Below are positions 6,332 to 56,705 of a DNA stretch of 64,000 nucleotides, piece after piece. Made by a program: the position numbers and the translations under genes. Source of the stretch: Flavobacteriales bacterium (GTDB taxonomy: Bacteria; Bacteroidota; Bacteroidia; Flavobacteriales; Flavobacteriaceae); the NCBI GenBank assembly GCA_026993355.1, contig JALWTX010000022.1, forward strand, positions 248,001 to 312,000, read 5' to 3'. Every line of letters begins with the position of its first letter. Positions within the stretch are counted from its first letter, which is position 1. The notes beneath the pieces are model-generated. The model was not told the DNA's origin. It saw nothing but the letters and a program-made list of their open reading frames with translations, and searched no databases.

Positions 6332-6991
6332 TTACTCAATTAAACGGCCATCTCGCATTAATAATTTTCTATCAGACATCTCTGCCAATTCTTCATTGTG
6401 TGTCACAATCACAAAAGTTTGGTTAAACCGGTCACGCAAATCAAAAAAAAGTTGGTGTAACTGACGTGCGTTTTCCGTATCTAAATTACCACTGGGCTCG
6501 TCGGCCATAATGACAGAGGGGTTATTTACTAAAGCTCGCGCTACAGCTACCCGTTGTTGCTCACCCCCCGAAAGCTTAGCCGGTTTGTGATGTAAACGGT
6601 CTTTTAAACCCAAATGTTCTAAAAGTTTAGCGGCTTTACTGTCAGCCTCAATTTTACTAAAACCGGCTATATAAGCCGGAATAGCCACATTTTCTAAAGC
6701 AGTAAACTCAGGCAATAACTGATGAAACTGAAAAATAAAACCTATTTCTTTATTTCTGAATTTTGAAAGTGCTTTTTCATTTAAACGACTTAAATCAGTA
6801 TTATTTATTTTTAACACATAATCATGATTAGTAGGTTTATCCAAAGTGCCAATTAATTGTAATAAAGTTGTTTTACCGGCTCCCGAAGGCCCAACAATAC
6901 TTACAACTTCACCTTTCTTAATATGTAACGAAACACCTTTTAGTACTTCTAAATTACCATATTGTTTTCTTAAATTTTTGGCTACTATCAT
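6332..6991 (-). CDS. ABC transporter ATP-binding protein, LolD/MacB type
   Basis: A ~220-residue ATPase with every nucleotide-binding motif: Walker [10 protein letters not shown], the Q-loop in [18 protein letters not shown], the signature [15 protein letters not shown], Walker [13 protein letters not shown] and the switch His in VIVTHNEEL. The [14 protein letters not shown] and DEPSGNLD wording is typical of the LolD (lipoprotein release) and MacB branch. No permease lies next to it; the co-directional downstream gene is the BatA-domain protein. A TATATTTG -7 element lies at 7017-7024. The Met at 6991 ([12 protein letters not shown]) fits family starts better than the upstream Met at 7003. 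Confidence 0.9.
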
Positions 6992-7060
6992 AAAAACAGA
7001 CATATTATTTTATAAACAAATATACATTTTTTACCTGTATAATATTTTAAATATTGTATT

Positions 7061-7088
7061 AAAAAAGGCTACCTAATTAGGCAGCCTT
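7061..7088 (-). terminator. Terminator of the M4 protease gene
   Basis: Read on the minus strand, an AAGGCTGCC/GGTAGCCTT hairpin with an AATTA-type loop is followed by six T. It lies 23 bases past the protease stop codon. Confidence 0.8.
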
Positions 7089-7110
7089 AAAATATATTAA
7101 ACAAAAATGT

Positions 7111-10100
7111 TTATTGTTTTACAAATCTTTGTGTCAATACTTTTTTGTCACTTTTAAATGTAACAAAATAAACACCGGCTTGCAAATGACTTACATCAAT
7201 AGAAGATTTGTTAAAGTCTCCTTTGGCCACGGTTTGACCCAATGTATTTAAAATGCTGTAAGTTTTCATGTTTTGGTCTTTTATATAAACCATCATCACA
7301 TTTTTCACCGGATTAGGGTATATACCTATGTCTGCCATATTAGCATGAACAGCTTGTTCTGATGTAGCAAAGCCAGCTGTTAAACAGAAATTAGTACTTT
7401 CTGTTTTTTGGAACGAACCACCTGAGGCTAATACGGTTCCGTCGCTATCTTTGGTAAATTTATATGAACCATTGCCATATGAACAGCACATACCGTCACC
7501 ATAAGCATCTTTCATTGTAAATGTATAACAAGCAGGATCAATACACATATTGATGACTTTGGTTGAACCATCAGGCTCAGATCCGTAGGTGCCACCTGAA
7601 TAGACGACATTGCCACTACCGTCAGTTATTTCCCAACTGGTTTCTTCAGGATAATTGTCAAAAGTAATAGATAAAGTGGTTGCCACACAAGCAGCTTGTT
7701 TTCCGGCATCAAAATTGAAAGCATCTACAGCCATATCACCTTGCCAAGTTGTTCCTGTCACACCATTAAAACGTAAACTAACTGTTTTACCAACATAGGC
7801 TGATAAATCAATACTAGCATTATACCACGCATTTCCTTGATTACCTGATTTGCTCCATACACTGGTCCAGTTAGCACCATTATCAGATGAGACTTCCAAA
7901 GCTAAGCTACCCATTTTAGTTGCATCGCCATACATATGATATTTGAAGCTTACAGTTGCATAGCTATCGCCTGTTAAATCAAAACAAGGGCTGGTTAAAA
8001 TAGCACGTTTATTTGAATAATTAGGACTGGACGATTCAATATAAACATAATAACTTCCTTCTGCAGCAGCTGACGGACCTGTATTGCTAGATGGCGTTGC
8101 ACCTGATTTTACAGTCCAATCAAAATCATCAGCTGTAGATTGTGTCCAAGCACCTATAGTATTTTCAAATCCTTCATGATAAGGGAAACTACTTACTGTT
8201 GTAGTACAGCTACCACCGGTACTTGCCGGTAAAGTTGTTACATTAACGGTGTTACTAGCCGCTGATACATTTCCGGCAGCATCTTTTGCTTTAACAAAGA
8301 ATGAATAGGCAGTATTGGCTGTTAAATTAGTCACCTGAGCAGTTGTACCTGTAACACTTCCCAATAAAGCACCACCTTGATAGACATCATACCCGGTTAC
8401 ACCAACATTATCGGTTGAGGCAGTCCATGATAAATCAACAGTGGTTTGAGTAACATTACTGGCTGCCAAATTAGTCGGTGCACTAGGGGCTTGTGTGTCA
8501 GCTTCTGCAGCAGTTAAATTAACGGTATAATCTTCCACTTCACCATAATCAAATGTTTCGCAAGCTGTCGGGATACCATTGTATTTCATAGAAACACGCA
8601 TACGGGTTGCGGTTTGTGTTGCATTAGCCGGTACTGTAAAACTACCGCTGTTGGGTGTATCTTTAGAGGCTGCTTTACTCCATACCAATTCACCGGCATC
8701 ATCAAAATCACCATCGTGGTTATAATCTATAAAGACAGCATAGGCTTCATCATAAGCAGTTCCTGTCCACTTAGGGGTGACAGTGATGGTATAAGCTTGA
8801 CCTACTGTTAAGTCAGTAGAAATAGATGTAAAGTTAGAATAACCATTGCCACCGTCAGAACTATTATCAATCGTATTCAATTGTACACGTTGAATATATT
8901 CGTCTGATACACTGTTTCCTTTTGATGAACAATAAGCCAAAACACCGTAAGGCGCTCCTACCCCAACTGCATACCAAGCATTCGTAACAGCTTGTTCTTC
9001 AGCTGAACCTGCACCATATAAATCTTTGGCAGCTTGAATACTATAAGTTCTTGCATCGGCATAAGTAGAACTTGAGGTTAAATAAACACTTTCGGTTCTG
9101 TAGGCAATATTACCGGCTTTATCAATACCAATACCATTGACAGTATAAGAATCGTTGTTATCATTGGTACCACTACCCCCTACAGATAATAAATAATACC
9201 AGTGGTTTAACACCCCACTATTGGTGTGAACACCTCCGTTATCCGAAGTACCTGTGTACCAATTAGTTCCTTTATAAGTATCCGGTTGACCTTCAGATTT
9301 AGGGTCACTCATTGAACGTAAAGCGGCATGTCCGCTGCGTCTTTCGATATCTTCCCCTATTAACCAAGTTTGTTTATTTGGTGCAGCAAAATATTCAATT
9401 GAAGCACCCCAAATATCAGAGAAACCTTCGTTCATAGCACCTGATTCGTTAGAGTAAGTCAAATCTGCTGTATTAGAACAAACAGCATGACCAATTTCGT
9501 GACCGGCAACATCTAACGAAGTTAAAGCATCAAAATAAGTTCCACTACCGTCACCATAGGTCATGACGCTACCATTCCAATAAGCGTTGTCATAATTGAC
9601 ATCAAAGTGCACATAACTTTTAATAACAGCACCATTGTTATCATAGCTGTTTCTATTGTGTTTAATTTTCCAATAGTCATAGGTCATTTGTGCGCCGTAG
9701 TGGGCATCTAATGCCGCATTGTCTTTAGCAGAATTGTCATATTCCGCTGCTGTCCAATTATTGTCATTATCGGTAAATTCGGTTGCCGTAGAATAATCGG
9801 TACTGGTATGCATATTGTAGGTTTCGATACCATTACCTCTTGTATAATCTCTTAATCTGTAACTTCCGTTGTAACTATCTGTTTTAATGGTTTTTTGACC
9901 ACTATAACGGGTATCAGCAGTTCCATCAACACTTACATGGTGAATGATGGCATCTTTGTAAAGAAGTTGACCTGTTTGTGCATCAACATAAACATAATCT
10001 CTGCTAACAGGCGCAGTTGCATAAATATCAAATTTGTAAGCTAATTTCGGCGCAGCTTGTCGTTTAGAATTTTTGTGCTGAAAATCGGGCAAAATAACTA

Positions 10101-45139: not shown

Positions 45140-45218
45140 AAAAAAAATGCCTCCCACTTAGGCGGAGAGGCTTACCAAATGTTTTCACAACGGAATAATC
45201 CTTATTGTGAATTCCTTT
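45140..45218 (-). ncRNA. tracrRNA of the type II-C CRISPR system
   Basis: Read on the minus strand from about 45218: the anti-repeat GAAAGGAATTCACAA pairs with the first 16 bases of the repeat (TTGTGAATTCCTTTC plus one G-U wobble). It is followed by AAGGATTATTCCGTTGTG, a nexus-like hairpin (GGA-TTAT-TCC), then a linker and a GCCTCTCC...GGGAGGC terminator stem with eight T. Length ~79 nt. Its pairing fixes the crRNA orientation: the array is read on the minus strand. Position, divergent to cas9, is common in II-C loci. Confidence 0.85.
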
Positions 45219-45224
45219 CGAAGA

Positions 45225-45360: not shown

Positions 45361-48300
45361 ATGAAAAAAATATTAGGACTTGATTTAGGCACTAACAGTA
45401 TTGGCTGGGCATTGATTGAACAAGATTTTGAACAAAAGAAAGGTAAAATTGATGATTTAGGAGTTCGAATTATCCCTATGACTCAGGATGTTATGGGAAA
45501 ATTTGATTCAGGGCAAAGTATATCCCAAACGGCAGAACGAACAGGTTATAGAGGCATAAGACGATTAAATCAAAGAAAACTTTTGAGAAGAGAAAGATTG
45601 CATCGGGTTTTAAATATTATGGATTTCTTACCTCGACATTATAAAGAAAAAATTGATTTTATTGATAAAAAAGGACAATTTCAAGAAGAAGTTAAAATAG
45701 ATTACAAGAAAAATGAAGAAGGAAAATATGATTTTATTTTTAAAGATTCTTATAATCAAATGGTTCAAGATTTTAGGAAAAGTGGATATAAAGGAGAAAT
45801 CCCCTATGACTGGACCCTTTATTATCTAAGAAAAAAGGCTTTGACACAGCCTATCAGTAAAGAAGAACTGGCATGGATTCTTTTAAATTTTAATCAAAAG
45901 AGAGGATATTATCAGTTGAGAGATGAAATGGCAGAAAATGATAATAACAAGAAAAAGGAATTTGTGGTTCTAAAGGTGAAAGAATTAAAACCTACCGGAG
46001 AAAAAACCAAAGTCGGAAAAGAATTATATGAAATAGTTTTTGAAAACGACTGGGTTTATCCAAAACAAACAGTTACTCCGGAAGCATGGGAAGGAAAAAC
46101 AAAAGAGTATATTGTGACTACCAGCACTATGAAAGACGGGAGTACAAAAAGAACTTTTAAACAAGTTGATTCTGAAAAAGATTGGATTGCTATTAAAGAA
46201 AAAACCCAACAAGATATTGAAAAATCAAGCAAAGAAGTAGGAGAATATATTTATGAGCATTTATTGAAAACGCCTAAATCAAAAATAAAAGGCGGGCTGA
46301 TAAAAACCATAGAAAGAAAATACTATAAAGACGAATTGAAAAAAATATTAGATGCCCAGAAAAAATTTCATCCGGCGCTACAAAATCAAGAATTATACAG
46401 GAAAGCTTTGATGGAATTATACCCCTATAATGAAGGGCATCGTAATAACCTCAAAAACAAGGACCTGCCCTACCTTATTCTGGAAGACATCATTTTCTAT
46501 CAGCGACCGTTGAAAAGCCAAAAGTCTTTGATTGGTAATTGTCCATATGAAAAAGTTACTTATGAAAAAAAAGAAAAGGACCCCGAAACTGGTCAAATAA
46601 AAACAATTAAAGAAACAAAGAATCTCAAAGTTATCTCAAAATCAAATCCTGTTTATGAAGAATTCAGGTTATGGCCCTTTCTACATAATTTAAAAATATA
46701 TAAAAATAAGGATTATAAAAATGATGAACTTCTTACAGATGTAGATGTTACTCACGAAGTTTTAGCAGAAGAAAAAGATTGGGAACAACTTTTTGAATAT
46801 TTATCCAATAAAAAAGAGATGTCTCAAAAAACTATCATTGACTTTCTCGTTAAGCAAAAAAAATTAGATCGCAGGGAAAAAGACAATTATCATTGGAACT
46901 ATCCGGAAGACAAAAAATATCCGGCAATGCCCACACGTGCCGGATTTTTATCCCGCTTGAAAAAAGTGAATAACCTTGAACCCGAACAATTTTTAACACC
47001 GGAAATAGAAAAACAACTGTGGCATATTATTTATTCTGTCCAAGACCCGGTAGAATATGAAAAAGCATTAAAAAAATTTGCGGATAAACATGGAATTGAT
47101 CAAGAAAGTTTCGTTAAGGCCTTTATAAAACATCCGCCTTTTAAAAGTGAATACGGAGCTTTATCTGAAAAAGCCATCAAAAAACTATTGCCACTGATGA
47201 GGCTTGGAAAATTCTGGAAAGAAGAAGACATCCATCCGGAAGTAAAACAAAATATTGACAATATTTTGGAACGGCTTAAAAGTGTGTTAGATCGTATTAA
47301 TCGCATTGAATGGAAAAAAAATGAAGACAAAGAAAAAAAGATAAATGAAATACTAGAGCAAATTTCCGATGATGATATCCCCAGAGCTGTTTTGAAGAGC
47401 TTCTTAAAAAACATTGACAAAAACCCTTATAAAGGGCTTCAACTTCACCAAGCCAGCTATGCTGTTTACGGAAGACATTCTGAAGCTACTGACGTACAAA
47501 AATGGGAAAGTCCCGCTGACATCACTCGTTATCTGCAAAATTTTAAACAACACAGCCTCAGAAATCCTATCGTTGAACAAGTAATTCTGGAAACCCTCAA
47601 AGTAGTGAGAGATATCTGGGAGACTTATGGAAACGGAGAAAAAGATTTCTTTGATGAAATTCATCTCGAACTCGGGAGAGAATTAAAAAACCCTGCCAAT
47701 GTCCGGAAACAAATCTCTCAAAAGAATGCTGAAAATGAACGCACTAATGCCAGAATTAGGGCTTTATTAAAAGAATTACTAAATGAGGGGGCTAATCCCG
47801 AATCGCCAAGTCACCAGGAAATCCTTAAAATTTATGAGCAAGACGTAGTGAATAGTTTGGAAAAACTTCCTGATGACATCGAGAAAATAAGAAAAGAACA
47901 CAGTCCCATTCCTTCACAAATTGAAAGATACAAACTCTGGCTGGACCAAAAATATGTTTCTCCTTATACCGGAAGGATTATCCCACTTTCCAAACTTTTT
48001 AGCACAGATTATCAAATAGAACATATCATTCCTCAATCCAGATATTTTGACAATTCATTAAGTAATAAAGTAATTGCAGAAAGCGAAGTGAATCAAGACA
48101 AAGGAAACAAAACCGCTAAGGAATACATCCTCGAAAAAGGAGGTTATACCATTGATGGCGGACATAAAATTCTTAAATTATCTGAATATCAATCTCATGT
48201 GGAAAAATATTTTTCACATAATAAAAAGAAAATGAAAAATTTATTGACCGAAGATATTCCGGATAACTTTATCAATAGACAACTCAATGACAGCCGGTAT

Positions 48301-49824
48301 ATCAGTAAAGTGATTAAATCTCTTTTGAGTAATATTGTACGAGAAGAAAATGAGCAAGCCGAAACCTCAAAAAATCTCATTGCCGTAACCGGTCAAATTA
48401 CTTCCATGTTGAAACACAATTGGGGTTTATCCGATAAATGGAATAAGATTATTCTTCCCCGTTTCAAAAGACTGAACGAACTCACACAGCGAACAGATTT
48501 TACATATATCAACAGGAATAATATTGAAGTACCTAAAATTCCCGAAGATATGCCGGGAAAAATTAACAAAAAAAGGATTGACCACAGGCATCATGCACTC
48601 GATGCGCTTGTGATTGCAGCTGTTAACAGAAATCACATTCAGTATATTAATGCACTCAATAATGAAAAAACCAAACATGCTTTGCAACCTCAACTCCTCA
48701 TTAAAAATGAATATGGGCATTATACGCGAAATTATCAGTTGCCTTGGGAAGGCTTTCCGGTAGAAGCTGCAAAAAAATTGGAAACAATTATCCCATCTTT
48801 TAAACAAAATTTAAGAGTGATAAACAAAGCCACCAACAAATACTGGAAATGGGTTAAACAAGAAACCGGAAGCTACAAGAAACAACGTGTTCCACAAACC
48901 AAAGGCGATCATTGGGCCATTAGAAAACCATTGCATAAAGAAACTATTTATGGAAAATTTGATTTGGTTAAAACCCCAAAAAATAAAATTGCCACTTTCG
49001 TCAGGACTCCTCTGTCTGCTATCAATAAAACAAAACACATTGAACAAATTACCGATAGAAATATTCGCGAAGTGATTATACCAAATCACCTGAAAAAATA
49101 TACGGATGAAAAGGGAAAAATAAAATTTGATGAAGCCTTTAGTCCGGAAGGAATAGAAGATTTAAACAAAAATATTGTGGAACTTAATAACGGAAAACCC
49201 CATCAGCCCATCTATAAGGTAAAAATGTATGAAGTTGGTTCGCGTTTTCCATTGTCTGACAATCCAAACAGCCCCAAGCATAAAAAATATGTAGAAGCTG
49301 CCAAAGGAACCAATCTGTTTTATGCCGTGTATTGGGATGAAAAAAAGAAAAAAAGAAATTTTGAAACTATCCCGTTGAAAGATGTAATTGCGCATCAAAA
49401 AATGGAAGCTCATCTCCCGAAAGAAGAAAGAACGACTATTCCTTTAAATGAAGAATTAGGGAAATTCCTTTTCCATATTTCGCCCAATGATTTGGTCTAT
49501 GTTCCGGATGAAGACGAGAACATCGATTTAATTGATTTTAAAAATTTATCTAAAGAACAAGTAAATAAGATTTATCTATTTAAAGATAGCTCAGCTAGTA
49601 CTGCAAATTTTATTCCTGTTCATTCTGCTAGTTTAATTTTTAATATGAATTTCCAAGAACAAAGGAAAAAAGATATTAATTATAAAATACAAAATGAGTA
49701 TGGTATTGGAAGTCCCCAATCAAAAAATCAAAAATCTTTAGATGGAAAGATTATAAAAAATATTTGCTGGAAATTAAAAATAGACCGCTTAGGAAATATT
49801 TACGGCATAGAAAAAGGGAAGTAG
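45361..49824 (+). CDS. cas9: Type II-C CRISPR effector nuclease Cas9
   Basis: RNA-guided DNA endonuclease, 1487 residues when started at the Met at 45361 (MKKILGLDLGTNSIGWALI). An in-frame TTG at 45292 adds 23 residues of no Cas9 likeness and lies within the -7/-33 region, so it is not used. Catalytic residues are all present: RuvC-I Asp8, the Arg-rich bridge helix (~50-75), RuvC-II Glu770 (IHLELGRE), HNH His888 (QIEHIIPQS) with Asn911, and RuvC-III His1078 and Asp1081 (HHALDALVIAA). The recognition lobe spans roughly 80-740 and the C-terminal ~390 residues hold the PAM-interacting region. Length is at the upper end for Bacteroidetes II-C. cas1 starts 1 base after the stop. Confidence 0.98.
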   Translation: MKKILGLDLGTNSIGWALIEQDFEQKKGKIDDLGVRIIPMTQDVMGKFDSGQSISQTAERTGYRGIRRLNQRKLLRRERLHRVLNIMDFLPRHYKEKIDFIDKKGQFQEEVKIDYKKNEEGKYDFIFKDSYNQMVQDFRKSGYKGEIPYDWTLYYLRKKALTQPISKEELAWILLNFNQKRGYYQLRDEMAENDNNKKKEFVVLKVKELKPTGEKTKVGKELYEIVFENDWVYPKQTVTPEAWEGKTKEYIVTTSTMKDGSTKRTFKQVDSEKDWIAIKEKTQQDIEKSSKEVGEYIYEHLLKTPKSKIKGGLIKTIERKYYKDELKKILDAQKKFHPALQNQELYRKALMELYPYNEGHRNNLKNKDLPYLILEDIIFYQRPLKSQKSLIGNCPYEKVTYEKKEKDPETGQIKTIKETKNLKVISKSNPVYEEFRLWPFLHNLKIYKNKDYKNDELLTDVDVTHEVLAEEKDWEQLFEYLSNKKEMSQKTIIDFLVKQKKLDRREKDNYHWNYPEDKKYPAMPTRAGFLSRLKKVNNLEPEQFLTPEIEKQLWHIIYSVQDPVEYEKALKKFADKHGIDQESFVKAFIKHPPFKSEYGALSEKAIKKLLPLMRLGKFWKEEDIHPEVKQNIDNILERLKSVLDRINRIEWKKNEDKEKKINEILEQISDDDIPRAVLKSFLKNIDKNPYKGLQLHQASYAVYGRHSEATDVQKWESPADITRYLQNFKQHSLRNPIVEQVILETLKVVRDIWETYGNGEKDFFDEIHLELGRELKNPANVRKQISQKNAENERTNARIRALLKELLNEGANPESPSHQEILKIYEQDVVNSLEKLPDDIEKIRKEHSPIPSQIERYKLWLDQKYVSPYTGRIIPLSKLFSTDYQIEHIIPQSRYFDNSLSNKVIAESEVNQDKGNKTAKEYILEKGGYTIDGGHKILKLSEYQSHVEKYFSHNKKKMKNLLTEDIPDNFINRQLNDSRYISKVIKSLLSNIVREENEQAETSKNLIAVTGQITSMLKHNWGLSDKWNKIILPRFKRLNELTQRTDFTYINRNNIEVPKIPEDMPGKINKKRIDHRHHALDALVIAAVNRNHIQYINALNNEKTKHALQPQLLIKNEYGHYTRNYQLPWEGFPVEAAKKLETIIPSFKQNLRVINKATNKYWKWVKQETGSYKKQRVPQTKGDHWAIRKPLHKETIYGKFDLVKTPKNKIATFVRTPLSAINKTKHIEQITDRNIREVIIPNHLKKYTDEKGKIKFDEAFSPEGIEDLNKNIVELNNGKPHQPIYKVKMYEVGSRFPLSDNPNSPKHKKYVEAAKGTNLFYAVYWDEKKKKRNFETIPLKDVIAHQKMEAHLPKEERTTIPLNEELGKFLFHISPNDLVYVPDEDENIDLIDFKNLSKEQVNKIYLFKDSSASTANFIPVHSASLIFNMNFQEQRKKDINYKIQNEYGIGSPQSKNQKSLDGKIIKNICWKLKIDRLGNIYGIEKGK

Positions 49825-49825
49825 A

Positions 49826-50752
49826 ATGATTAAAAAAACTTTATTTATAGGAAGCGACTCCTATTTACATACGAAACACAAACAGCTAATCATCGATTTT
49901 GCAGACAAAGAAAAGGAGAAAGTGAGCATTCCCATTGAGGATATTGGGGTGATGGTGCTAGAAGCCTATCAAATGACGCTTTCCCTAAACCTTCTCTCTC
50001 GCCTGCTTGAAAATAATGTCGCAGTGATAACTTGCAATAGCCGTAAAATGCCGCAAGGTTTATTGCTTAATCTTGAAGGTAATACCCTCCAACAAGAACG
50101 CTTTAGAGCCCAAATAAATACGAGCAAACCCCTTAAAAAACAACTCTGGCAACAAACTGTCAAAGCTAAAATTAGAAATCAAGGGAGGCTTCTAGCAAAA
50201 TATGGTTTAATCCCCTCTACAGGAGAACTCCCCCGTAATTTTGCTACATGGGCAGAATCGGTTCGTTCCGGTGACCCCGACAATCTGGAAGGGAGAGCAG
50301 CTGCCTATTACTGGAAAAGCCTTTTTAGTGAATATATTCCCGGTTTTACACGGGGACGGGAAATGCCGCCTCCTAACAATCTACTGAATTATGGGTATGC
50401 AATCCTCAGAGCACTTACGGCAAGATCATTGGTAGCCTCCGGGTTATTACCCACTTTGGGCATACATCATCACAACCGGTACAATGCTTATGCCCTAGCC
50501 GATGACATCATGGAACCTTATCGCCCTTTTGTAGATAAAATTGTTTATGGAATCGTAGCCGTAAAGAATGGTAAAGGAGATTATGAACTGACAAAAGAAT
50601 TAAAAGCCGATTTACTTAAAATCCCGGTGCTCGATGTATATATAGACGGGGAAAAAAGCCCTCTGATGAATGCCATGCAAAGAACTACGACCAGTTTATC
50701 CAGGTGTTTTGAGGGATTTCAACGAAAAATATTATATCCTCAATTAAAATAG
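49826..50752 (+). CDS. cas1: CRISPR integrase Cas1 (type II)
   Basis: 308 residues. It integrates spacers as a Cas1-Cas2 complex. Metal ligands are in the conserved places: Glu in NLEGRAAAYYW (~149), His in LGIHHHNRYNAYALADD and Asp/Glu in DDIMEPYRPFVD. N-terminal beta domain and C-terminal helical domain are complete. It is directly downstream of cas9 and 6 bases before cas2. Confidence 0.97.
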   Translation: MIKKTLFIGSDSYLHTKHKQLIIDFADKEKEKVSIPIEDIGVMVLEAYQMTLSLNLLSRLLENNVAVITCNSRKMPQGLLLNLEGNTLQQERFRAQINTSKPLKKQLWQQTVKAKIRNQGRLLAKYGLIPSTGELPRNFATWAESVRSGDPDNLEGRAAAYYWKSLFSEYIPGFTRGREMPPPNNLLNYGYAILRALTARSLVASGLLPTLGIHHHNRYNAYALADDIMEPYRPFVDKIVYGIVAVKNGKGDYELTKELKADLLKIPVLDVYIDGEKSPLMNAMQRTTTSLSRCFEGFQRKILYPQLK

Positions 50753-51100
<348 letters not shown>

Positions 51101-51219: not shown

Positions 51220-53188
51220 GTTGTAATCAATATGTCAAAGATATAAAATTGAAAGGAATTCACAACAAGAGAAGCCCATGTATTTGCATAAATGATGTTG
51301 TAATCAATATGTCAAAGATATAAAATTGAAAGGAATTCACAACAAGCAATTGTTCTTTTAGCTTTTTTCTTTTGTTGTAATCAATATGTCAAAGATATAA
51401 AATTGAAAGGAATTCACAACTATAAGTAGGTAAGCGTTTACCTGTAACAGGTTGTAATCAATATGTCAAAGATATAAAATTGAAAGGAATTCACAACAGT
51501 AATTCAGATTAGCAACCACTTTACCTAGTTGTAATCAATATGTCAAAGATATAAAATTGAAAGGAATTCACAACAAAAATATCATAATGTTGATTATTTA
51601 TATGTTGTAATCAATATGTCAAAGATATAAAATTGAAAGGAATTCACAACTCTAATATGTCTTTAACATACTTTCCTTTTGTTGTAATCAATATGTCAAA
51701 GATATAAAATTGAAAGGAATTCACAACGGGACTATAATCAACTTTACGATTTATATTGTTGTAATCAATATGTCAAAGATATAAAATTGAAAGGAATTCA
51801 CAACTCCAAATATCGTGCTGTTTATAACTTTTCGGTTGTAATCAATATGTCAAAGATATAAAATTGAAAGGAATTCACAACAGATGCCGATGCTAACAAA
51901 CTGCATCAGCAGTTGTAATCAATATGTCAAAGATATAAAATTGAAAGGAATTCACAACATTTGGTGCTATTGGTGAAGATTTGTCAAGTTGTAATCAATA
52001 TGTCAAAGATATAAAATTGAAAGGAATTCACAACATAACCTTCAACGTGATAGCATACGGGCAAGTTGTAATCAATATGTCAAAGATATAAAATTGAAAG
52101 GAATTCACAACTGAAACTTCTAAAACACAATGAACTTGATGTTGTAATCAATATGTCAAAGATATAAAATTGAAAGGAATTCACAACTCACACGTCGTTC
52201 AAGGGTTTCGTGCGCAAGTTGTAATCAATATGTCAAAGATATAAAATTGAAAGGAATTCACAACAAGGGGAGCAATTGGCTAAACAGAAGCCGGGTTGTA
52301 ATCAATATGTCAAAGATATAAAATTGAAAGGAATTCACAACTGATGAAGTGAAAAAACGCAACTTGGTTGCGTTGTAATCAATATGTCAAAGATATAAAA
52401 TTGAAAGGAATTCACAACCGGCTAATGGGAACAATGCGCCACGCTCGGTATGTCAAAGATATAAAATTGAAAGGAATTCACAACAGCTGTTCGCTTTCGT
52501 CCCAGTCAAATTCCGTTGTAATCAATATGTCAAAGATATAAAATTGAAAGGAATTCACAACTATCAGATAGGTTGGACGACACACCACTATGTTGTAATC
52601 AATATGTCAAAGATATAAAATTGAAAGGAATTCACAACCAATTCTTAGAAAACCAAGTGATGAATCGGGTTGTAATCAATATGTCAAAGATATAAAATTG
52701 AAAGGAATTCACAACATGTAATATAAGTGTATAACAATAAAAATTGTTGTAATCAATATGTCAAAGATATAAAATTGAAAGGAATTCACAACAGGCGATT
52801 AATGCTGCAATTGCTATTCTTGTTGTAATCAATATGTCAAAGATATAAAATTGAAATCGACTGAAAGGAGATTCACGAATACCAATAAAAAATATTAAAT
52901 AATAATGAGTAAAGGAATTCACAACTAGAACGGACAAATATTAGCCGGTTTCGTGTTGTAATCAATATGTCAAAGATATAAAATTGAAATCGACTGAAAG
53001 GAGATTCACGAATACCAATAAAAAATATTAAATAATAATGAGTAAAGGAATTCACAACTATTAATTATTTGCTACCTAAATTATATAATTGTGTTCAACA
53101 ACTCAAAGATACAAAATGAAACCGACATAGAAAGCTGACGAATACCAATAAAAAATATTAAATAATAATGAGTAAAGGAATTCACAGC
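51220..53188 (-). CRISPR. Type II-C CRISPR array, 24 repeats and 23 spacers
   Basis: Repeats begin GTTGTAATCAATATG and end AAAGGAATTCACAAC on the plus strand. Of 24, twenty are exact 47-nt copies (R1-R16 and R18-R21, between 51220 and 52792), one is 36 nt (R17, 52449-52484, first 11 bases missing), two are 104 nt (52822-52925 and 52955-53058) and one is a degenerate 101 nt (53088-53188). Spacers are 29-30 nt and all different. By tracrRNA pairing the crRNA is read on the minus strand. In that reading each 47-nt repeat contains TTG-N19-TATCTTTG, a complete Bacteroidetes promoter, so crRNAs are probably started repeat by repeat as in Neisseria II-C. None of the spacers matches DNA elsewhere in the window by eye. 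Confidence 0.97.
52822..53058 (-). repeat. Two 104-nt extended CRISPR repeats
   Basis: Both copies are the 47-nt repeat with 57 extra bases between the tracrRNA-pairing end and the promoter end. They are identical to each other and separated by a 29-nt spacer. A TTT at each edge of the extra segment allows its exact removal by micro-homology, giving the 47-nt form. Confidence 0.9.
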
Positions 53189-53625: not shown

Positions 53626-53726
53626 ATTGTTTTCAACAAGTCAAAGATCCAAAATGAAACCAACGTAGGAAGTTCACGAATACCAACAAAAAATATTAAA
53701 TAATAATGCGTAAAGGAATTCGCAAC
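53626..53726 (-). repeat. Degenerate 101-nt CRISPR repeat, isolated
   Basis: Same layout as the extended repeats (GAATTCCTTTACGCATTATT, a shared AT-rich core, GATCTTTGACTTGTTG), with ~75% likeness by eye. The -7 element is damaged (GATCTTTG). It lies 437 bases outside the array. Confidence 0.75.
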
Positions 53727-54259: not shown

Positions 54260-54352
54260 TGCTATTCCTTTGATACAAAGTTATAAAATTAATTTTAAGG
54301 ATATTCTCGAAAACCAATAAATAAATATTAAATAAGTAAAGTAATTCACAAT
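54260..54352 (-). repeat. Most decayed extended CRISPR-type repeat
   Basis: On the minus strand TTGTGAATTACTTTACTTAT begins it and TTTTATAACTTTG ends it. The AT-rich core (TTTAATATTTATTTATTGG) still aligns with the 104-nt repeats. It lies ~1.1 kb outside the array. Confidence 0.55.
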
Positions 54353-54464: not shown

Positions 54465-55895
54465 GTGACTGTAATAAAGAAACGGATTGTCATTCCGACA
54501 GAGCGAGGCACGAGCGACAGCCTGTCCCGATCTTTCGGGAAGAAATCTGACCCCGTAGCCATTGACATATCCAAATACACCAAAACCATCCTCAAAATAG
54601 CCAAAGAAGGCTTTAAAAAAGGTTTCAAAAGCGTTTACAACCGCGAACTGCACACGCATATCTTTGACGATTTGTCAACCGCTGCAGAACTCGGATATGG
54701 CAACAATTGGATCAAGTTTGACCCCCACCACAGCCCTACGGTCAAGCTACTGCAAAAAAACCTTTACTTTTTTGTCGCAGGCAAACCAATGGCACAGCTC
54801 AAAGAAATGAACGCTTTATTAGTTGACGACAGCGGTAAAATACGCAACTGGCAAAGCTTTAAAACCGAAGTCTTAAAGCGAAACAAAGCTTACAACCTGC
54901 GTTACTTACAAGCCGAATACCAAACTGCCAAAGCCTCGGCACAAATGGCGCGTAAGTGGAACGAAGCCCAAGCCGTTAAACACCTTTATCCTAATTTAAA
55001 GTATATGACCGCTCACGACGAACGGGTTCGTGAAGATCATGCTAAGCTCGACGGCATTGTCCGCCCCATAGATGATGCTTTTTGGGACACCCACTATCCG
55101 CCCAACGGTTGGCGTTGCCGTTGCTCCGTCCGTAGCACCCGCGACGAAGCTACAAAGCTTAAAGACATACCCAAAGTGCCGGTACATAAACATTTCAGAC
55201 ACAATGTCGGTAAAATCGGACAAATCTTTGACGAAAAACAACACCCGTATTTTAAATATATCAATGAACAAAAAGGTGAATTGGAATGGTGGAAACTAAA
55301 AGACCCACATTATGTAGGAATGTACAAAAGCAAAGGAAAGGTATTTGCCAGTATATTTGCCGACCGTAAAGATTATCAGTCAAATCTCAATTTTGCCAAA
55401 GCCGTAGCAGAGCAACACAAACTGGAAATATACATCAAATCACATATTGATAAAACCAAAATAGAAAACTATTTGAAAAAAGTGCTTAAAGGCAAAGCTC
55501 TAAAAGAAAAGCTAAACAGCATTAAAAACAATGAGTACGAGATAAAAATAGGCAATGAAGTGTGGCAGGGCGATTTAGCCGAGCAAAAGGGAAGTAATCC
55601 CGCTAATACAGTTAGTAGCGCATTTAGTCATAAATTTGGATATACAAAAACAGGTACACCTAAACAATTACAGGTATATGATAAAGTGTTTATTGGAATT
55701 GCACTTAAAGATGTTAGTAGTGATACTTTTTTTCATATAGCAGAAAAACTAAATCAAAAAGCAAAGATCCACACTAATTTAAAGGGCGTAATTTTAAAGA
55801 TTAATAGCAAAGTATTTTTCCTAAAAAGAGAAAAACTAATGGATAGTAATGAAATACATAAAACTATAAAAACAGAAAATGCCTTAAATAAATAA
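54465..55895 (+). CDS. Mu gpF-like phage head protein with C-terminal polymorphic-toxin-like domain, 5' end replaced
   Basis: The ORF's first ~28 codons are REP-like repeat DNA (54488-54549), so the original N-terminus is lost; phage coding begins about 54549 (DPVAIDISKYTK). The MuF core is clear: MTAHDERVREDHAKLDGIVR and WDTHYPPNGWRCRCSV (Phage_Mu_F). After ~residue 285 the protein carries ~190 residues (VFASIFADRKDYQSNLNFAK and following; NTVSSAFSHKFGYTKTGTPK) not needed for head assembly. Such C-terminal swaps are known in MuF polymorphic toxins of temperate phages. I infer a nuclease-type toxin domain; the exact family is not recognised. A remnant of a Mu-like prophage. Confidence 0.75.
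   Translation: MTVIKKRIVIPTERGTSDSLSRSFGKKSDPVAIDISKYTKTILKIAKEGFKKGFKSVYNRELHTHIFDDLSTAAELGYGNNWIKFDPHHSPTVKLLQKNLYFFVAGKPMAQLKEMNALLVDDSGKIRNWQSFKTEVLKRNKAYNLRYLQAEYQTAKASAQMARKWNEAQAVKHLYPNLKYMTAHDERVREDHAKLDGIVRPIDDAFWDTHYPPNGWRCRCSVRSTRDEATKLKDIPKVPVHKHFRHNVGKIGQIFDEKQHPYFKYINEQKGELEWWKLKDPHYVGMYKSKGKVFASIFADRKDYQSNLNFAKAVAEQHKLEIYIKSHIDKTKIENYLKKVLKGKALKEKLNSIKNNEYEIKIGNEVWQGDLAEQKGSNPANTVSSAFSHKFGYTKTGTPKQLQVYDKVFIGIALKDVSSDTFFHIAEKLNQKAKIHTNLKGVILKINSKVFFLKREKLMDSNEIHKTIKTENALNK
54488..54549. repeat. REP-like repeat fused to the phage gene's 5' end
   Basis: GTCATTCCGACAGAGCGAGG followed by CACGAGCGACAGCCTGTCCC and GATCTTTCGGGAAGAAATCT, same family as 42376. It interrupts the MuF gene. 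Confidence 0.75.
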
Positions 55896-56231: not shown

Positions 56232-56705
56232 ATGAGCATAAATGAAACCCCCGATTTTAACGCCATGTGGCAAACCGTTAAACGTGATATAGTCGATATT
56301 GCCGCTACCGAAGCAAAACACTTTTTTGAAGACAGCTTCGAGAATCAAGGATTTACAGACACCGCTTTTGAAGCTTGGCCAAAAACACACCGGGGCGGGC
56401 GTATTTTGGTAGATACAGGATACCTCAAAAACTCTATCATAACATTTGAACAGAGCCTAAAACGTATCGTCATCGGCTCCGACGCCGAATATGCCGAAAT
56501 ACACAATAACGGTGGCACCATACCCATAACGCCAAAGGCGAGAAAATTCTTTTGGTGGATGTATCGAATGACCGGCGACACCAAATGGAAGTATATGGCA
56601 TTGCATAAGGGATCACATTTTGTGATACCCAAACGCCAATTTATAGGCGAAAGCCAAACACTAATGGATAAACTCGACAAAGAACTCAAAACATGCATTA
56701 AATAA
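56232..56705 (+). CDS. Phage virion morphogenesis protein (Mu gpG-like)
   Basis: 157 residues: FEDSFENQGFTDTAFEAWPK, the RILVDTGYLKNSIITF segment, then VIGSDAEYAEIHNNGGTIP and FVIPKRQFIGESQTLM, all typical of the phage virion morphogenesis family (PF05069). In Mu, G follows F, and the same order is seen here. The other head and tail genes are missing, so this is a remnant of a decayed prophage. Confidence 0.88.
   Translation: MSINETPDFNAMWQTVKRDIVDIAATEAKHFFEDSFENQGFTDTAFEAWPKTHRGGRILVDTGYLKNSIITFEQSLKRIVIGSDAEYAEIHNNGGTIPITPKARKFFWWMYRMTGDTKWKYMALHKGSHFVIPKRQFIGESQTLMDKLDKELKTCIK

Follow-up and report, generated by a model that had tools for sequence, protein, structure and literature searches.

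The window analysed here, a stretch of 64,000 nt from a Flavobacteriales bacterium, contains a CRISPR array with repeats of two lengths, 47 nt in most of the array and 104 nt at its oldest end, which raises the question of where the additional 57 nt come from and which form is the older. The locus is a type II-C CRISPR-Cas system with cas9, cas1, cas2, a tracrRNA and an array, as judged from Pfam and NCBIfam matches for a cas9 with RuvC and HNH domains, a type II cas1 and a cas2. On the plus strand, cas9 (45361..49824; RuvC_III, HNH_4 and bridge helix; TIGR01865) is followed by cas1 (49826..50752; TIGR03639) and cas2 (50759..51100), with no fourth adaptation gene among the ORFs of at least 100 aa between cas2 and the array. 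The tracrRNA gene is located upstream of cas9 on the minus strand (45140..45222, edges inferred from sequence) and comprises an anti-repeat to the 5' part of the repeat, a nexus and one tail with a terminator (AAAGGAATTCACAATAAGG..CCGTTGTGAAAACATTTGG..terminator hairpin). The 47-nt-repeat part of the array (51220..52792, minus strand) consists of 20 repeats that match the 47-mer exactly and a truncated one (about 52448-52484); its leader side adjoins cas2, and the array is read on the minus strand, toward cas2. In its gene order, its repeat ends (GTTGT..ACAAC), the tracrRNA upstream of cas9 and the oldest repeats at the transcription-5' end, the locus resembles other Flavobacteriaceae type II-C systems with 46/47-nt repeats. 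Unlike in these systems, several of its oldest repeats hold an insert of ~57 nt. Beside the old end of the array, the window also contains genes (54465-55895 and 56232-56705) which we take to resemble phage head-morphogenesis genes and which are possibly a prophage remnant.

Two identical 104-nt repeats (52822..52925 and 52955..53058, minus strand) had been correctly placed by the preliminary description, down to the edge bases. As it also stated, removal of 57 nt from these repeats yields the 47-mer exactly, and does so at any of four offsets, given a 3-nt AAA ambiguity (TTT on the minus strand). The inserted element copies are on the plus strand at 52857..52913 and 52990..53046, with edges uncertain by these 3 nt of AAA and with the same sequence; the sequence model R1 matches them at 52854-52913 and 52987-53046 with 46.9 bits each, the first copy being one of the model's own 22 seeds. 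Farther out on the minus strand, two decayed long repeats made up of a 46-nt repeat type and the element were found at 53088..53188 (R1, 24.0 bits) and 53626..53726 (R1, 24.1 bits), followed by a strongly decayed one at about 54276..54351, which is absent from the R1 matches. All three had been proposed before, and their local alignment scores (121, 115 and 77, respectively) exceed the maxima of 1,000 dinucleotide shuffles (36, 38 and 34). When the window outside the array was sampled in steps of 20 bases, the third also gave the best score. The proposed growth of divergence with distance is only partly seen, as the 104-mer differs about as much from the first decayed copy (84%) as from the second (83%), and these two are closer to each other (89%). 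Their CRISPR part belongs to another repeat type of 46 nt, nearer to the repeats found in relatives (42/46 and 40/46 with locus L060) than to the 47-mer of the window (38/47 each). An artefact in the assembly of this one contig was rejected, since the one-contig genome G033 shows the same build with six 103-nt repeats.

By comparison with other genomes, the additional 57 nt of the 104-mers are a copy of an interspersed mini-element of ~54-57 nt, with the layout AAA/TCGA..GAGATTCACGAAnnCC..GTGAG(C)T/AAA, slashes marking the edges. Its flanks are fixed, with AAA, TCG(A), the core AGATTCACGAAnnCC, a variable AT-rich stretch, RTGAG(C)T and again AAA. A search with the 104-mer in the genomes of 149 relatives found the inner part alone, without the repeat ends, at several places in two genus genomes, and less similar matches in other family genomes; the first window copy thus has homologous copies without CRISPR context. 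The pattern AGATTCACGAAnnC..GAGTAAA occurs without CRISPR context in 3 of 13 genus genomes, and a slightly stricter pattern, one base different, in 22 of 199 family genomes; a reversed control pattern gave 0 in every one of these genome rows. With the model R1 (A1, R1), built on 22 element copies of which five are from CRISPR repeats, matches at E <= 0.01 were obtained in 202 of 397 Flavobacteriaceae genomes, and at E <= 0.001 in 43 of 247 class genomes, the window's genome and four other Flavobacteriaceae included. Copies are found in REP-like hairpins (GCAAA/../AAAGTAA), in head-to-tail tandems (L115), in CRISPR repeats and just past start codons (ATGAAA/..ATGAGT/AAA). The element is probably mobile. 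RNAalifold pairs AATC of the left edge with GATT of the core, and in 3 of the 22 copies the pairing changes to AACC:GGTT, one of four pairs being kept through changes on both sides, which weakly suggests a hairpin.

Several other identities were considered for the element. A plain coding element was rejected: the copies at gene starts read MKSKIHEY.., but their lengths vary without keeping the frame, and many copies lie away from gene starts. A phage origin was rejected as well, as 15 viral stretches with GAGATTCACGAACTCC lack the element edges and look like chance. A known RNA family is not supported either, since Rfam, run over 22 kb of the window and 15 loci, gave only CRISPR-DR49 and one tRNA (L064), the rest being below gathering scores; the window repeat itself scores 30.8 bits against CRISPR-DR49, under the gathering score of 41. 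As a separate observation, L079 (about 62-66 kb of the G087 contig) and L273 (764-767 kb of the G246 contig) have three element copies each, every one directly before a small reading frame and in one orientation, resembling gene cassettes.

A cas1 relative is present in 78 of the 397 family genomes; regions were fetched for 77 of them, the window standing for the remaining one, and the survey covers 60 arrays (59 from these regions plus the window). The element is within the repeats of eight of these arrays (the window, L123, L127, L130, L133, L151, L184 and L191), a count from which L144 and L149, with probable decayed inserts by eye, and L063, with an insert other than the element, were left out. 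Beyond the 60 arrays, it was found in the closest relative, G456, and in a genome of another family, G493, in which five copies adjoin II-C-type repeats, the type being called from the repeats alone. The repeats of G033, G420, G188 and G246 contain six, four, two and three copies, respectively, and in G456 it is the terminal repeat that carries one. A common site, GTTGTGAATTGCTTT/../TTTCAG or like in crRNA sense, is used in the window, L127, L130, L133, L151, G456 and G493. In L184 and L191, whose repeats are 36 nt long, the site is GGTTT/../TTTGATT, the left part being worn away in L191, and in L123 both the site and the orientation of the element are different. The element-bearing set is at the oldest end in six of the eight surveyed carriers and also in G456 and G493; the element repeats of G246 and G384 (loci L151 and L184) are found past a duplicated leader, on the leader side. 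The nine carriers (the eight plus G456) need 8 changes on 64 tips of a quickly built Cas1 tree (81 rows, with SH-aLRT support only), compared to a shuffled mean of 8.6, with 661 of 2,000 shuffles at or below 8. The carriers are thus as scattered as expected by chance, indicating that the element was gained or lost many times.

Some of these loci showed further peculiarities. L063 (16850-17721) contains a second kind of long repeat, of 96 nt, with a hairpin-rich insert (GGAGCGCAGCGAAGCGCGAGTTCC); its last long repeat and the short repeats have a base in common that is missing from the older long ones, suggesting an order of long and then short. At the oldest ends of L139 and L147 and at about 9700-10300 of L133 (crRNA sense), the oldest repeats have their 3' halves replaced by, or are spaced with, recurring REP-like stretches, which in L133 and L147 are about 75 nt. 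The cas1 of L133 (G420; about 6934-7821) has an in-frame TAA, which may have put an end to adaptation in this carrier of long repeats.

In crRNA sense, the insert is located after the 15-nt tracrRNA-pairing part of the repeat and before TATCTTTG, so that the pairing part and this downstream box both remain. The sequence is in this respect consistent with the suggestion of the preliminary description that the long repeats may still function. In the window repeat, TATCTTTG and an upstream TTG form a candidate promoter within the repeat; as read from the sequence, the TTG is 19 nt upstream in the short repeat and is displaced by 57 nt in the long one. According to PMC8092290, a TTG 33 nt upstream of the spacers has been proposed as a promoter, and transcription of II-C arrays toward the acquisition end is described there and in PMC12080349. 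With this possible -33 box displaced, the adjoining spacers may be expressed more weakly. We would expect spacers beside long repeats to have weaker transcription of their own and the insert to be tolerated otherwise.

The 104-mers are most probably 47-nt II-C repeats with an inserted element that was copied on and later exactly lost. Elements of this class recur in the CRISPR repeats and tracrRNA genes of Bacteroidia. Comparison between genomes establishes, at the level of sequence, insertion and not ancestry, the recurrence, and one element lineage per array; copying by Cas1-Cas2, exact loss, any effect on crRNA and the existence of a mobiliser are what we infer from it. The element would insert at the TTT (AAA on the element strand) with which the tracrRNA-pairing segment ends. 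A copy in the then leader-proximal repeat would be inherited by new repeats, in long form, over several spacer acquisitions, probably by the duplication of the repeat that accompanies each of them, and the repeat would meanwhile drift from the 46-nt to the 47-nt type. Exact loss from the leader-proximal repeat, through the AAA edges of the element, would then have made every newer repeat short and left the long ones behind as relics at the old end of the array. As described in PMC12080349 and PMC8092290, II-C arrays gain new spacers at their last repeat, and their first repeat is the oldest one. The two decayed copies at 53088 and 53626 share the element loop with the 104-mers, a loop that varies between other copies, and at E <= 0.01 the window's genome shows element copies in the CRISPR locus only, together pointing to one insertion that was copied. 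In G033, five of the six elements are identical and one is a single base off, and the spacers that follow the long repeats are of normal length and of five kinds, one of them present twice. The next best match elsewhere in this genome is far weaker (E 8.8e-7 versus 6e-11, among 150 candidates scored). For Cas1-Cas2 to duplicate a repeat of ~100 bp would, however, go against the repeat-length rulers of other subtypes.

The preliminary description had instead taken the 104-nt repeat as the ancestral form of the CRISPR lineage and the 47-nt repeat as its deletion product. In favour of this, the array has its long copies at the oldest end, AAA/TTT allows an exact deletion, and G456 (Cas1 82% identical) likewise has a long terminal repeat, with a related element, and a short leader-side repeat. 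In G011, of the same genus, an outlying repeat might also be counted on this side. It fits the short form better (72 versus 59) and is followed by GCAATTCACCAATACCAAT, which weakly resembles the element core (5 of 2,000 shuffles as good, scores of 30 elsewhere in the contig), so that it could be a worn long copy. With G456, this repeat suggests that the insertion may be old in the genus and its kin. Even if old in the clade, it would be an insertion and not an ancestral repeat, since the 57 nt occur outside CRISPR loci and in many genomes. Moreover, the repeats of the 60 arrays are 46-50 nt or 36-38 nt as called (one partial 26-nt consensus excepted), making 46/47-nt repeats the norm among relatives and the long ones the exception, and the oldest in-register repeat of G011 is short, one base off the 47-mer of the window by eye. 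Ancestry of the long form in the lineage is therefore highly improbable. What had been said to count against it, namely short-repeat relatives and an insertion with a duplicated edge, was largely found, except that the AAA at both edges, maybe a 3-bp target duplication, looks the same as AAA borne by the element. Exact deletion through AAA/TTT, not supported as the origin of the 47-nt form in the lineage, is plausible as a late and local step, because the long copies are at the oldest end and the older ones carry the older repeat type; long before short is kept as a purely local statement for the window array.

Another possibility might be that several independent insertions hit the old repeats of each array and that Cas1-Cas2 never copied a long repeat. 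Long (L) and short (S) repeats are interspersed in G033 (L L L L S S S L L S) and G420 (L L S L S S L S), orders that need repeated single-copy losses, or possibly several insertions or conversions, and the element occurs many times elsewhere, head-to-tail included. This is unlikely nonetheless, as the copies within an array are identical or share the variable loop, no comparable source copy was found elsewhere in the one-contig G033, nor in G000 at E <= 0.01, and in the window no short repeat comes before a long one. It might also be argued that the insertion was selected in the oldest repeats for stopping the useless extraneous crRNA of the first repeat, as a counterpart, by insertion, of the mutated extra repeats known in II-C arrays. 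These extra first repeats are mutated in 60% versus 5% of other repeats, according to Feussner et al. (2025, PMC12080349), and the likeness is that the oldest repeats are altered and the acquisition end intact; the difference is that here, in place of point mutation, a defined interspersed element occupies a fixed site in as many as six repeats. The position of the element-bearing set in most carriers would suit selection, but a neutral relic explains it equally well, and in G246 and G384 the location is on the leader side. As the 15-nt tracrRNA-pairing part is also left intact and several repeats carry the element, not the first alone, selection is quite unlikely.

Attention was drawn to the tracrRNA genes, which could be parsed in 49 of 81 loci, by weak R1 matches located upstream of cas9. 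In these genes, the element is joined to alternative 3' tails with predicted terminators. Tandem tail cassettes at the element site were present in nine of the 49 (L124, L127, L138, L151, L153, L162 and L164 by pattern, L120 and L149 by eye), each with a junction at which ..AAATGTTTCACGAACnCC..GTGAG(C)T/AAAACATTT.. or like comes after one tail and leads to the start of a second. Those tails that were folded are predicted to form terminator-like hairpins; by eye, the second tail is decayed or without a clear terminator in L138 and L162. In G304, which adjoins the window lineage, a 92-nt unit with its own terminator is found where the window and G456 have none, making the window tracrRNA, without the element, an empty site relative to G304 and the two a clean filled/empty pair. 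Two tails (42/44 and 41/46 identical) are shared, in opposite order, by L127 and L164, which are distant from each other on the Cas1 tree, and L127 also has the element inside the anti-repeat. The classes of first tail follow the Cas1 tree weakly, with 34 changes on 49 tips (minimum 22; shuffled mean 38; 18 of 2,000 shuffles as low). Of 208 R1 matches at E <= 0.01 in the 78 cas1-bearing genomes (best 14 candidates per genome), 28 are in CRISPR-Cas loci, which sit in 11 genomes and include copies from the same array that are not independent, R1 itself including CRISPR copies. The 77 fetched regions amount to 1.2 Mb, roughly 0.5% of those genomes. A wider reading, held with somewhat less than even confidence, is that a class-wide mobile mini-element favours II-C loci, with fixed sites in repeats and a tracrRNA cassette that delivers 3' tails and shuffles them between unrelated Cas9 systems, and that II-C adaptation can duplicate double-length repeats.

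In being very short, interspersed, probably hairpin-forming and in or next to REP-like hairpins, the element resembles the REP/REPIN sequences of RAYT (Y1 HUH) transposases. It differs from these in its sequence and edges (AAA/TCG..GAG(C)T/AAA) and in residing in CRISPR repeats and tracrRNA genes. By tblastn, a RAYT-like gene is present just upstream of cas1, after cas9 where visible, in L063, L120, L123, L125, L131, L140 and L171. Two of these seven genes (L063 and L120) were tested against NF047646 (NCBIfam) and gave matches below the NCBI cutoff. With the L063 gene as query, no RAYT-like genes were found near non-CRISPR element copies in the loci searched. Only two of the seven loci are strict element carriers (L120 in the tracrRNA, L123 in a repeat), and no association with RAYT is therefore claimed. 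Terminal inverted repeats, a trait of MITEs and IS derivatives, were not seen in the element by eye. The tracrRNA tails are like integron cassettes in their head-to-tail units, conserved short junction and order exchanged between genomes, and unlike them in that the cargo is a tracrRNA tail or nothing. Integron attC sites have the core consensus GTTRRRY/RYYYAAC, which by eye is absent from the edges of the 22 aligned copies.

Excerpts of the open-licence literature contained no description of the element, of its recurrent site in CRISPR repeats or of tracrRNA-tail cassettes, and none of II-C repeats with such a ~57-nt insert. With these findings, the account of a primitive long repeat gives way to that of a mobile element. 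Repeat finders may miss or split arrays with such long repeats. As the element is short and recognisable, it offers a handle for finding its mobiliser. The arrays provide natural test cases for whether II-C Cas1-Cas2 measures repeat length, with repeats of 99-104 bp seemingly duplicated beside normal spacers, and the tracrRNA genes for how tails change between Cas9 systems.
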